A program made the translations under genes and the position numbers. A DNA stretch of 60,184 bases from Brachyspira sp. (GTDB lineage: Bacteria > Spirochaetota > Brachyspiria > Brachyspirales > Brachyspiraceae): NCBI RefSeq assembly GCF_029258575.1, contig NZ_JARHYI010000117.1:1-60184 (forward strand), written 5' to 3'. Positions 4,307 through 14,706 of the stretch are shown here, piece after piece. The notes below the pieces were generated by a model. That model was not told where the DNA came from. It made no database searches and saw only the letters and a list, made by a program, of their open reading frames with translations. Position 1 is the stretch's first letter; every line of letters begins with the position of its first letter.

Positions 4307-6703
4307 TTAATTGTTTAAATTAATAGGCATAGAAACAAAAAAAGTAGTTATTTTGAAATATTCATTTATACTTTTTATAATCATGCTTCCTCTATGAGCT
4401 TCAACTATTCTTTTTGAAATAGCAAGCCCTATTCCTACACCATGACTTTTTGTTGTGAAAAAAGGTGTAAATATCTTCTCGGCTACTTCAGGTTCTATAT
4501 ATGAATTTGTATTTTCTACTATTATATCAATAATAGAATCTCTATAAGCATTATCATCAAATACTACGCTTATAAAAGAACCTTCTTCATTATCATTGAT
4601 AGCCTCTATAGCATTTATTATAAGATTGAATATTACTTCATTCATTCTATCATAATCCCATCTTACAATATCTTTTTTAGTTACTTTTACAGCATAGAAT
4701 TTTATATTTTTTCCGCTTTTTTTAATATATTCATTTGTCAAAATAGTGAGATATTTTATCATATCATCAATTTTTATATTATCAACTTCCAAATTAATGC
4801 TTTTGGCAAATGATAAATTTCTTTTTAAATAATTTTCTAAATTTTCTACTTCATTCGCTATTATTTGAGCATAGTTTTTAATGTTTTCTTCTTTACTTAC
4901 TTTAACAAGCCTATTAGCAAATCCAGCAATAGGTACTATAAAGTTTCTAAGATTATGAGCCATTGATGAACTCATTTCTCCTATTATAGCTAAACTTTTT
5001 AAATCCAATAAAGTTTTTTCAGCAGCTTTAAGAGCATTATTATTTTTTTCTATTTCATTATAAAGAGAAGAGTATTCCAAAGCAACAGCCGCCTGCCTTC
5101 CGAACATCTTCAAATAATCTAAATCATCTTCAGGTATAGGCTTACCATTATAAGGATTATCAACAACTATCATACCTATACAATTTGTAGCATTCATTAT
5201 AGGTATAATTGCAAAAGGGCAGTCCCCGAATATGTCAGTATACTTTTTTATCTGATATACATCTTCATCATTTATATTAACAATATTAATACTTTTTTTA
5301 TTGTTGTATACATCAAAAAATAATTTGCAGTTTTTATTATTTGGTATAACAGTATTCAAAAATCTTTGATTCAAATCCCAAGAATCTTCCATACTCCTTT
5401 TATCAAAAGAAAGCATTAATTTTTCTCTTAAAGCATATTTATCCAAACTTTTCATATTACTCCATATCATACCAGCATCTTGGGAATTTTTAGGAGCAAC
5501 ACACATTCTTCCTCTAAATACATTGAATTCTTTATCATAAAGAAAAGCAAAAGCTCTATTAAAAGCAAATACATCTCCTATCGTTGTAATAGTAAGAAGC
5601 AGAAATAATATATCTTCAGTTTTTGAACGTTCTAATAAAATATTGCTTATATCGTATAAAGTGTTCAAACGAGACATATGTTTAGTATTTTTTTCATTTG
5701 CTTTGCTTAATTCCACTATATTATAGTGTTCAGACATTCTGCTTGCTATATTTGCCAGAAGAGGGTTGAATAAATTAGAATCATTAAAATCAAAATCACC
5801 TAAAGGATTTTCAGCATCTGGTATCTTATCTATAACAGCAATATATCCGAAACAATCTTTTTTGGTTGGTATTCTATTAAACAATATTGATCTGTTTATA
5901 ATGCCTTTGAATTTATCATAGTATTTATTTTTAGCAACATTGTTTATATAAAATATACCATTATCCCAATATTCATCAGAATATATTTTGTCTTCAAATA
6001 TAGAATAGTCAAAATAATCTGGAAATCCAAAACTAGATCTTGTATAAAAATTATTATTTTCATCTATTAATCGAATAAATGCTTTACTTGATGTGAAAAT
6101 ATTTGCTATATCAGCTGCTAGATTATTTAAATTATTTTCAAAATCATCAACATCGCTTAATTTTAAATATAATTCTCTAACTAATTTTAACTGTTTATCT
6201 CTTTCATTATATGTAACACTTTGAAGCACATTATTGGCATATACAGCAAAATGACCTATAACATTTTTTATTTCTTCTATTATTGAATTGTAAAGCTCTA
6301 TTTTATTTTCTTTATTTCTAAATACTACAACGCCTATAGGATTTGCATAGAAAAATATAGGAAGTATAAACATAGAAGAATAGTTAGAAAATACTTCCAT
6401 ATCTGTATGATTAATATTATCCCCTATAAATATTTTTTGTTCATATAATACATCTTTACAATGATTTGCTAATATTGGAAAATCTACTTTACATACATAG
6501 TATCTGTCTATACCATATACTCCCCTTAATATAAGATAATCACCCTTTGGAAAGTATACTTCCCCGCAATCGAACCCATAATACTGACAAGTTTTTTCTA
6601 AAAATAAATCGACAACTCTGTCTATTTCATTTGTATTTTCTGCAAAAAGCAGTCCCATAGATAAATCTGAAAAAAAACTGTCTATTGATTTTCTATCTTC
6701 CAT
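4307..6703 (-). CDS. Soluble multi-GAF sensor histidine kinase
   Basis: The 798-residue protein has no transmembrane segment, so it senses a cytoplasmic signal. Three GAF-like regions (about 15-160, 175-330 and 345-545) precede a short helix and a HisKA-type dimerisation region with the phospho-acceptor candidate H583 in SSSMAHNLRN. A HATPase_c domain follows, with an N-box (NLIINAIEA, 693-701), an F-box (FTPFF, 745-749) and a G2 box (GVGIGL, 755-760). The usual DxGxG G1 box reads ENTNS (730-734), lacking the Asp and both glycines, so ATP binding may be atypical. No cognate regulator is adjacent. The nearest receiver proteins are at 8326 and 12507. Confidence 0.85.
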   Translation of the reverse strand: MEDRKSIDSFFSDLSMGLLFAENTNEIDRVVDLFLEKTCQYYGFDCGEVYFPKGDYLILRGVYGIDRYYVCKVDFPILANHCKDVLYEQKIFIGDNINHTDMEVFSNYSSMFILPIFFYANPIGVVVFRNKENKIELYNSIIEEIKNVIGHFAVYANNVLQSVTYNERDKQLKLVRELYLKLSDVDDFENNLNNLAADIANIFTSSKAFIRLIDENNNFYTRSSFGFPDYFDYSIFEDKIYSDEYWDNGIFYINNVAKNKYYDKFKGIINRSILFNRIPTKKDCFGYIAVIDKIPDAENPLGDFDFNDSNLFNPLLANIASRMSEHYNIVELSKANEKNTKHMSRLNTLYDISNILLERSKTEDILFLLLTITTIGDVFAFNRAFAFLYDKEFNVFRGRMCVAPKNSQDAGMIWSNMKSLDKYALREKLMLSFDKRSMEDSWDLNQRFLNTVIPNNKNCKLFFDVYNNKKSINIVNINDEDVYQIKKYTDIFGDCPFAIIPIMNATNCIGMIVVDNPYNGKPIPEDDLDYLKMFGRQAAVALEYSSLYNEIEKNNNALKAAEKTLLDLKSLAIIGEMSSSMAHNLRNFIVPIAGFANRLVKVSKEENIKNYAQIIANEVENLENYLKRNLSFAKSINLEVDNIKIDDMIKYLTILTNEYIKKSGKNIKFYAVKVTKKDIVRWDYDRMNEVIFNLIINAIEAINDNEEGSFISVVFDDNAYRDSIIDIIVENTNSYIEPEVAEKIFTPFFTTKSHGVGIGLAISKRIVEAHRGSMIIKSINEYFKITTFFVSMPINLNN

Positions 6704-8325: not shown

Positions 8326-9033
8326 ATGAGAGTATTAGTTTATGATTCATCTATGCAGATAAGAGATAGTTTTATCAGTATACTTATTACTGCAGGATAT
8401 GAGGTAGTTGCTGTAAAGGATAAAAATAATATTTTAAGTATGTTTGGAAAGCTTCCGTTTTCTATTGCTATTATAGAAGCCGATGAAAATGATGAAGATA
8501 TGTGCAATATACTTGAAAAAATTTATTTAGATGACAGATACAGTAATGTTCATGTTATAGTTCATGTTGAAGATCCAAGCAGAGAATTTTTTACTAAGAT
8601 GATGAGAATAGGAGTTTCTGGTTTTTTATTAAAGCCTTTCAATGAAAAAGAGTTTTTGAATAGATTTAAGCTTTTAATAGAAAAAGCTGGAGTTAAATCT
8701 AAAAAATTAAAGCATATAGTTGTAAATAATTTAGATAATTTCAAATTGGTATTCAGACATGAAGGTGCAAGACAGATTCTTCATGGTATGATAATAGAAA
8801 TGTCTCCTATAGGATTAAAATTTATTATGCCTCCTAATGAGCCTGATATAGAAATAGGGGATTCTATAAAAAATGCTTCTATGTCAATTAGTTCTTATAA
8901 AATTAGTTTCACTATTAATATCACAGAAAAGATTGGAAATGAATATATAGGATTATTTGAAGATTTATCTGTTTTTAATTCTAAATTAATATGTAAATTT
9001 ATATATGATAAATATGTTGAAAAAATAAAATAA
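8326..9033 (+). CDS. Degenerate response-regulator receiver with PilZ-like C-terminus
   Basis: Residues 1-115 follow a receiver fold, with D7 in VYDSS, the conserved Lys in LLKPF (K103) and the expected alternating strands. At the phospho-acceptor position the sequence reads IIEAD, with Glu (E51) where Asp is expected. His 80 replaces the usual Thr/Ser. Phosphorylation in the normal way is therefore doubtful, and Glu could mimic the active state. The C-terminal half resembles a PilZ domain (EMSPIGLKF matches the D/NxSxxG signature loosely). The basic part reads RHEGAR, with four rather than three residues between the arginines. It lies 20 bases upstream of thiD. Confidence 0.65.
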   Translation: MRVLVYDSSMQIRDSFISILITAGYEVVAVKDKNNILSMFGKLPFSIAIIEADENDEDMCNILEKIYLDDRYSNVHVIVHVEDPSREFFTKMMRIGVSGFLLKPFNEKEFLNRFKLLIEKAGVKSKKLKHIVVNNLDNFKLVFRHEGARQILHGMIIEMSPIGLKFIMPPNEPDIEIGDSIKNASMSISSYKISFTINITEKIGNEYIGLFEDLSVFNSKLICKFIYDKYVEKIK

Positions 9034-12506: not shown

Positions 12507-13799
12507 ATGCAAACAGTAACAACTAAACAAAATATACTAATCATAGATGATGAAGAAGATATACTTATTACCTGTCAGAATATATTAGAAAGTGAAGGCT
12601 ATGATGTAGTGATAGCAAAAAATTATAAAGAAGCAGAATACATTTTTAATAAAAAAAAAATAAATTTGGTTTTTTTAGATGTATGGCTTCCAGACACTGA
12701 TGGATTAGATATTTTATCATATATAAAAGAAAAATATCCTTCTACAAATGTAATTATGATGAGCGGACATGCAGGAGTAGAAACTGCAGTAAGAGCTACT
12801 AAAATGGGAGCTTATGACTTTTTGGAGAAGCCTATTAGTATATCTAAACTTCTCTTAAGTTGTGATGAAGTATTCAAAGAACATAAAAATGAAAATGATA
12901 GTATTGAATATGATAATAAAGAATGTCAGAATATAAAACATAATGGAAAATATAAAATTAAGCAGAGAACTTTAGCTAAAAGTATTGTAGTAAGCGGATT
13001 CGCTTTGATGGAAGGCAGAAAAACTGCTTTGACCTTAGTTCCTGCTGAAGTTAATACAGGAATAGTTTTTATAGATATTAATACAAATACTCGTATAAAA
13101 CTTTCACATGATAATATACTTTCCAAAGATAAATCAGGAGCTGTTAATTCTACAGCATTAATATCAGGAAACAGATACATAAAAACAACAGAGCATTTTT
13201 TGGCTGCTCTTCATATGATGGGAATAACCAATTTAATAGTAAAATGCGATGGAGAAGTTCCTAATGTTGATGGCTCTGCTTTAGTATTTTGTGATGCATT
13301 GAAAGAGGCTGGATTTGTTGAGCAGAATGATTATATAGAACCTATAGTTATAGATGATACATTAACTTACGGAAATGTTAATGATAATGATACTTATATA
13401 ATACTTTCACCTTATGACGGACTTGAAGTTAGTCTTCGTATAGATTTTGCTGGAAGTATAGGCGTTCAGGAATATACTTATAAATTTGAAGATTTTAATC
13501 AATTCACTGAAGAAGTTGGAAGAGCTAGATCATTTAATACTATAGATAATATAGATTATGCTCAGAAAATGGGTATGGCAGGAAGCGGTATGATAGGAAG
13601 TCATATACTTCTTTGTGATGGAAAGGTTATAAATACTAAATTACATTTTGATAATGAGTTTGTAAGACATAAAATCTTGGATATAATTGGCGATTTATAT
13701 ATATTAGCCAGACCTATAAGAGGAAAAATAGTTGCTAATAAATCTTCGCATTCTTTTAATCATTCAGTTGTTCATGATCTTGCAAATAGATATTTATAG
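12507..13799 (+). CDS. lpxC: Response-regulator receiver fused to LpxC deacetylase
   Basis: Residues 8-125 form a complete receiver domain: acidic pair D14/D15, phospho-acceptor D58 in VFLDVWLPDTDGLD, S86 and K108 in LEKP. It resembles NtrX/NtrC-type receivers. After a charged linker (about 126-152), residues 153-430 are LpxC, the zinc UDP-3-O-acyl-GlcNAc deacetylase of lipid A synthesis. E229-H230 (TTEHFLAALH), H388, D392 and D396 (RHKILDIIGD), and H415 (KSSHSFNH) match the zinc ligands and catalytic residues of E. coli LpxC with conserved spacing. Both halves look intact. GGAAG precedes the ATG. A sigma factor gene follows at 52 bases. Allosteric phospho-control of the enzyme is inferred, not shown. 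Confidence 0.92.
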   Translation: MQTVTTKQNILIIDDEEDILITCQNILESEGYDVVIAKNYKEAEYIFNKKKINLVFLDVWLPDTDGLDILSYIKEKYPSTNVIMMSGHAGVETAVRATKMGAYDFLEKPISISKLLLSCDEVFKEHKNENDSIEYDNKECQNIKHNGKYKIKQRTLAKSIVVSGFALMEGRKTALTLVPAEVNTGIVFIDINTNTRIKLSHDNILSKDKSGAVNSTALISGNRYIKTTEHFLAALHMMGITNLIVKCDGEVPNVDGSALVFCDALKEAGFVEQNDYIEPIVIDDTLTYGNVNDNDTYIILSPYDGLEVSLRIDFAGSIGVQEYTYKFEDFNQFTEEVGRARSFNTIDNIDYAQKMGMAGSGMIGSHILLCDGKVINTKLHFDNEFVRHKILDIIGDLYILARPIRGKIVANKSSHSFNHSVVHDLANRYL

Positions 13800-13851: not shown

Positions 13852-14706
13852 ATGTCAGAAAGCAGACCAAGAACAAATACGGAAGAACAGAATAATATAT
13901 CATTATATTTTGCTGATGCTAAAAAAGAAAATCTTTTAACTAGAGAAGAGGAAATAGAATTAACTAAAAGATTAAAAGAGGGAGATGCAGAAGCAAGATC
14001 CAAACTTATTAGAAGTAATTTGAGATTCGTAATTACAATAGCAAAACAGTATAAAAATAGCGGACTTTTACTTGAAGATTTAATAAGTGAAGGAAATTTA
14101 GGGCTTATAATAGCAGCTGACAGATTCGATCCTGATAAAGGCTACCATTTTATATCTTATGCAGTATATTGGATAAGGCAGAGTATTTTAAGAGCTATTA
14201 ATGAAAAATCAAGACTTATAAGACTTCCTTTGAATAAGGCTATGGACTTGGTTGATTTGGAAAGAGCTGTACATCAATATTATTATAAAAGCGGTTATAC
14301 TCCTGATGTTAATGAACTTGCTACTATATTAAATAAAGATCCTAATGATATTCTTCATATTATGTCTATGAGTACTGAGCATATTTCACTTGAGGGTGAA
14401 TATAATTATGACGGTATGAAAGATAGGCTTATAGATATTATAGAAGATAAAACTTCTGTAAATGTTGAAGAGACTGCTATAAATAAAGAGCTTATGGAAG
14501 AATTAAAAACAGCTATTGAGGGCTTATCGGATATAGAAAAGCAAATCATAAATGCAAGATATGGTATAGATCAGGATAGAAAAACTCTTAAAGAAGTAGG
14601 GGAAATGTTTTCTTTCACCAAAGAGAGAATAAGACAGATTGAGAAAAAAGCATTGAGAAAAATGCATTCTCAGAAATATAGTTCTTTAAAAGATTTCTTA
14701 AAGTAA
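13852..14706 (+). CDS. Sigma-70 family RNA polymerase sigma factor (RpoD/SigA-like, short)
   Basis: The 284-residue protein carries sigma regions 1.2 to 4.2. Region 2 includes NLRFVITIAKQY, DLISEGNLGL and FISYAVYWIRQ, region 3 has RAINEKSRLIRLP, and region 4.2 ends in FTKERIRQIEKKALRKM. It lacks the long region 1.1 and non-conserved insert of the primary sigma factor, so it is a group 2-like or RpoS/RpoH-size alternative factor that recognises a -10/-35 promoter similar to the housekeeping one. It follows the receiver-LpxC gene closely on the same strand and may be expressed with it. The regulon is unknown. Confidence 0.88.
   Translation: MSESRPRTNTEEQNNISLYFADAKKENLLTREEEIELTKRLKEGDAEARSKLIRSNLRFVITIAKQYKNSGLLLEDLISEGNLGLIIAADRFDPDKGYHFISYAVYWIRQSILRAINEKSRLIRLPLNKAMDLVDLERAVHQYYYKSGYTPDVNELATILNKDPNDILHIMSMSTEHISLEGEYNYDGMKDRLIDIIEDKTSVNVEETAINKELMEELKTAIEGLSDIEKQIINARYGIDQDRKTLKEVGEMFSFTKERIRQIEKKALRKMHSQKYSSLKDFLK

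Follow-up and report, generated by a model that had tools for sequence, protein, structure and literature searches.

The LpxC of Brachyspira, the committing deacetylase of lipid A synthesis, is joined in a single reading frame to an intact response-regulator receiver (REC) of the NtrX type, and this fusion is the only LpxC of its genome. We describe the REC-LpxC gene in a stretch of 60,184 nucleotides of a Brachyspira genome, referred to here as the window, and propose that it encodes a response regulator with LpxC as its output, in which phosphorylation of D58 by an NtrY-type kinase would control LpxC via a flexible tether. We consider this model reasonably probable, and phospho-control is our best reading of the arrangement, judging from the sequences compared below. 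LpxC is essential in most Gram-negative bacteria and a drug target of long standing, and Brachyspira species are the agents of swine dysentery and human intestinal spirochaetosis. The controls of LpxC that we know of act on transcript or degradation.

The fusion gene (12507-13799, forward strand) starts with ATG, encodes 430 residues and is matched by both Pfam and NCBIfam models. Its receiver (residues 10-116; 12534-12854, forward) scores 102 bits against Pfam Response_reg (PF00072) and keeps the complete phospho-site, namely the acidic pair D14/D15, the phospho-Asp D58 (codon 12678-12680, forward), which is the predicted phosphorylation site and is invariant across all aligned fusions, S86 and K108. 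A linker (residues 125-148; 12879-12950, forward; dN/dS ~1.1) leads to the LpxC catalytic domain (residues 153-426; 12963-13784, forward), which scores 230.7 bits against PF03331 (cut-off 27) over profile positions 1-267 of 268, and 198.4 bits against NCBIfam TIGR00325 (lpxC), above the curated cut-off of 187.25. The zinc and catalytic residues E229, H230, H388, K389, D392, D396 and H415 are all intact. The initial annotation, which read a receiver and an LpxC in one frame, is thus confirmed by both databases, with every residue that it named present at the number given. Compared with LpxC as described by TIGR00325, the fusion has a full-length catalytic domain with all metal and catalytic residues, but differs in its N-terminal receiver, in a tail shortened to 15 residues after H415, and in the residue before F343, which is usually Thr but is Ser in the Brachyspira-class fusion proteins checked. 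Codons 107-166 of the window's gene contain no ATG, GTG or TTG, so a separate LpxC product made by internal initiation is unlikely. An AlphaFold prediction of the fusion, based on an alignment of 13 close relatives, gave a mean pLDDT of 48, with an unusable LpxC part and no REC-LpxC interface to be seen.

The fusion is real, and neither an assembly artefact nor a product of chance, because the same fused frame recurs in 24 further Brachyspira genomes, where the twelve residues checked are identical, and in more distant fusions. We searched for LpxC in 296 genomes, with Spirochaetota as the scope of the profile search, and then in every available member of the two classes in which fusions occur. 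Exactly one LpxC is present in each of the 31 genomes of the window's class (26 Brachyspira, three others of the family and two of a second family of the order), in frames of 427-458 residues apart from one, L055, which is ended by a contig edge and still reads as REC plus LpxC. All four genomes of a second spirochaete class likewise have one LpxC; three of these are intact fusions, and in the fourth (G044) the receiver was found in a different frame on the far side of an NN gap in the assembly, which led us to reject this genome as a standalone exception and makes a fusion there probable. Several genomes, above all in the second class, are fragmented or incomplete assemblies. The receiver was read directly in 20 aligned fusions, in the contig-cut L055, in the gap-broken L057 and in 24 more. 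The architecture is therefore not restricted to Brachyspira, as had been suggested for checking, but occurs in 35 of 35 genomes from two classes, including all genera examined in the window's class (one contig-cut, one gap-broken). LpxC stands alone in the 30 other spirochaete loci from the first search, and the remaining LpxC frames of the phylum are mostly 275-405 residues long, these being judged by frame length only.

The LpxC tree separates the 13 sampled fusions, as a single clade (100/100), from 30 standalone LpxCs of spirochaetes. The fusion thus probably arose once and long ago, and a single fusion clade is not rejected in the REC tree either (p-AU 0.45). One ancient event, kept without exception in the genomes examined, is the simplest reading. 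A second complete LpxC in the genome, together with an inactive fused copy, had been named as evidence that would refute phospho-control; in the window's genome, which is more than 99% complete, neither a second LpxC nor a decayed copy was found, and the fusion is the sole copy. Since this genome also contains LpxB, the fusion is expected to serve as the active LpxC of a lipid A pathway, with deacetylase activity implied. The genome paper of B. hyodysenteriae lists lpxA, lpxB, lpxC, lpxD, kdtA, lpxL and lpxM, and passes over lpxC without comment (PMC2650404).

The receiver is akin to NtrX. Its best curated receiver model is NtrX, with 110.8 bits versus 71.6 for NtrC; the score lies below the whole-protein cut-off of 600, with the match covering the REC and the rest of the protein being LpxC, and the protein lacks the sigma-54 AAA+ and DNA-binding domains that NtrX has. 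The REC tree joins the fusions to the NtrX-like receivers of spirochaetes (93/91) and sets them apart from the NtrC-like receivers (96/91); the placement of one long-branch row within the fusion group is uncertain. Fusion and NtrX-like receivers also have the signature LDxWxP...SGH...EKP in common (QKP or IKP in two of the NtrX-like ones), whereas NtrC-like receivers, including that of the genome itself, have TGH and TKP or LKP. The resemblance to NtrX or NtrC types that had been noted initially can thus be narrowed down: NtrX is upheld by score, tree and signature, and NtrC falls away on the same three counts. The accompanying suggestion of a swapped output agrees with our data, as an NtrX-type receiver carries LpxC in place of the sigma-54 ATPase and HTH.

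Which kinase would phosphorylate this receiver? In other spirochaetes, all 30 NtrX-like loci examined have a kinase gene directly upstream. The candidate partner of the fusion is an NtrY-like kinase of 596 residues with HAMP, HisKA and HATPase domains, encoded outside the window on another contig of its genome (G000, contig C7, 8588-10375) and unlinked to the fusion gene. It is present in 31 of 31 genomes of the class and has an equivalent in four of four genomes of the second class, and its H-box, WREAAIKVAHEIKNPLMPI, is of the NtrY type. At the ten loci inspected, no phosphorylatable receiver gene lies beside it. The kinase tree places these orphans between the kinases adjacent to NtrX and those adjacent to NtrC, and it neither rejects (p-AU 0.27) nor demonstrates their grouping with the former. 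Only one gene in Brachyspira genomes reaches the search threshold for NtrX/NtrC, and in G000 this gene is NtrC-like and neighbours an NtrB-like kinase of its own. From this pattern we infer that the NtrX receiver moved onto LpxC and that its kinase, NtrY, stayed in the genome. A wider version, in which one spirochaete event let lpxC capture an NtrX receiver minus its transcription output with NtrY kept, is tentative, and we give it slightly less than an even chance; intermediates with lpxC beside ntrX were not found among the loci of standalone genomes checked.

The gene of the NtrY-like kinase has a tail-to-tail neighbour, a receiver-like ORF of 121-138 residues that lacks the phospho-Asp (L079, 1138-1503, forward; also L083, L097 and L104). 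This ORF is conserved in Brachyspira and its sister genus g2, and absent in g3 and family f2. It is possibly a pseudo-receiver that modulates the NtrY-like kinase.

Three points speak against our model: the NtrY-like kinase gene is unlinked to the fusion gene, its product has an intermediate place in the kinase tree, and the genome encodes further kinases that could act as donors. The phosphate might come from a GAF-domain histidine kinase in the window (4307-6703, reverse strand), from the NtrB-like kinase, from CheA or from acetyl phosphate, and such an origin would be compatible with control of either LpxC catalysis or LpxC abundance. The GAF kinase was proposed as donor in the initial annotation; its gene and the fusion gene are ~6 kb apart in the window and no more than 8 kb apart in several Brachyspira, and receivers can indeed take phosphate from small-molecule donors. 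However, the H-box of the GAF kinase, MAHNLRNFIVPI, is atypical, in the kinase tree the protein is placed apart from the NtrY types, though on a long branch, and its gene is close to another, degenerate response regulator (8326-9033, forward; Response_reg 29.5 bits, just under the cut-off). The NtrB-like kinase, for its part, is adjacent to the gene of an NtrC-type partner of its own. Every fusion genome encodes an NtrY-like kinase, and the GAF kinase is possible but less likely as donor, its standing as main donor being weakened by tree placement and H-box, and the NtrY-like kinase appears to be the better candidate; overall, we regard a donor other than the NtrY-like kinase as rather unlikely. 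The C-terminal half of the degenerate regulator is unassigned, and an amylase-like gene separates it from the GAF kinase gene.

The phospho-site of the receiver is strongly conserved. Among 15 fusions from both classes, 21 of 110 REC columns are invariant, and D14, D15, D58, S86 and K108 are all among them, for which the chance would be ~1.7e-4 if invariance fell randomly. Among 11 Brachyspira, dN/dS is 0.088 for the REC, 0.055 for the LpxC domain and 1.13 for the linker. By this measure, purifying selection acts strongly on both domains, and the linker evolves in an effectively neutral way, as a free tether would. A linker without conservation speaks against a rigid helix that transmits the signal, and for docking, dimerisation or recruitment.

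In the mechanism that we favour, the membrane-bound NtrY-like histidine kinase, which has no neighbouring NtrX, would phosphorylate D58 in the receiver derived from NtrX. Depending on its phosphorylation state, the receiver would then dock differently, on the LpxC domain of the same chain, on another receiver to form a dimer, or on the kinase, and docking would work across the unconserved flexible tether of ~25 residues. The state of the receiver would thereby change the activity, partnering, stability or availability of LpxC and so set the rate of lipid A synthesis. What we observe is the anatomy, conservation and kinship of the fusion and its co-occurrence with the kinase; from these we infer the identity of the donor, the phosphorylation of D58 and the effect on LpxC. 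A link between NtrYX and LpxC does exist elsewhere, at the transcript level: loss of NtrYX in Rhodobacter raises the lpxC transcript 8.8-fold and increases LPS, apparently indirectly (PMC7240162).

The main rival to control of catalysis is that the receiver may govern stability. Phosphorylation would then expose the protein to, or hide it from, a protease or adaptor, with the receiver replacing a C-terminal FtsH degron. In E. coli, this degron resides in the C-terminal tail of LpxC, ~40 residues long, and a tail of that type is absent from the fusion. Beyond the equivalent of the catalytic His265, fused LpxCs continue for 14-21 residues and standalone spirochaete LpxCs for 16-49 (mostly 32-45). 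The fused tails thus rank with the shortest of the phylum sample, and the receiver may have taken over stability control. There is precedent for such a role, as receivers steer exposure to protease or adaptor in RssB- and CpdR-type systems; the level of LpxC is its classical control point, and a neutral linker would suit a tethered recruitment module. Yet a short tail also occurs in some standalone LpxCs (16 residues in L042), and we judge control of abundance in place of catalysis to be unlikely. A purely structural or oligomerisation domain that is never phosphorylated is more improbable still: the extended ornithine, lysine and arginine decarboxylases do offer a parallel, as biosynthetic enzymes with an N-terminal REC "wing" that derives from a single, clade-defining fusion and is needed for oligomer assembly (PMC8503589), but in REC-LpxC neither the phospho-site residues nor the K108-P109 turn vary across the two classes, all fusion genomes retain a kinase of matching type, and the receiver-like ORF described above is an example of a receiver that has lost its Asp in these genomes.

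How does REC-LpxC relate to known systems? Response regulators with enzymatic outputs are a known kind, with CheB, PleD and RpfG as examples, and the known outputs are mainly enzymes of signalling or adaptation. REC-LpxC resembles these in its order of receiver then enzyme, and the new element is the output, a single-copy LpxC acquired in one ancient fusion. Sequence databases will list REC-LpxC proteins under the LpxC name. The fusion is similar to NtrYX in the sequence, signature and tree position of its receiver and in the retained NtrY-like kinase, but LpxC replaces AAA+ and HTH, the kinase and receiver genes are unlinked, and the presumed target is the enzyme itself and not transcription. 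In Desulfovibrio, DVU2934 is also a two-component regulator dedicated to LpxC, but it is a separate DNA-binding protein that acts at the lpxC promoter (PMC3333781), whereas in REC-LpxC the receiver is fused to the enzyme. We found no description of the REC-LpxC architecture in the open-access literature searched, and the words receiver, fusion and spirochete are absent from a 2025 review of lipid A regulation. If our model is true, a sensor kinase would switch outer-membrane synthesis directly, beyond gene expression or protein breakdown, and in two spirochaete classes the sole LpxC would tie lipid A synthesis to envelope sensing directly, at the post-translational level. This bears on how Brachyspira set their level of lipooligosaccharide, and suggests a route by which the receiver of a transcription factor may be re-used on an enzyme with its kinase retained.

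The genomic surroundings of the fusion are less constant than the fusion itself. As the initial annotation stated, a sigma factor gene follows closely: it encodes a sigma-70-family protein of 284 residues with regions 1.2-4 (13852-14706, forward), directly downstream of REC-LpxC. This neighbour is conserved only in Brachyspira and the sister genus g2, where it is a probable operon partner; we set it aside as a clue to function, since it is limited to these genera and distant loci differ. In an ORF reading, distant REC-LpxC loci adjoin DNA-repair genes, with a recA-like gene upstream in L048 and a recN-like gene downstream in L045 and L046.

Two further observations concern other genes. The window's own genome encodes a Nudix hydrolase domain fused to a HisKA/HATPase core on contig C74 (L065, 364-1911, forward), and an anti-sigma-type ATPase (L071, 1387-1878) precedes the Nudix-kinase gene. 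Finally, distant second LpxC-like matches of 40-68 bits occur in one spirochaete family, f31 (G175, C30, 31299-32063; G137, C28, 108393-109211; G192, C9, 1672195-1672842; G198, C122, 22170-22985; G186, C51, 43800-44618), and in G186 the distant match is the only LpxC match of the genome.
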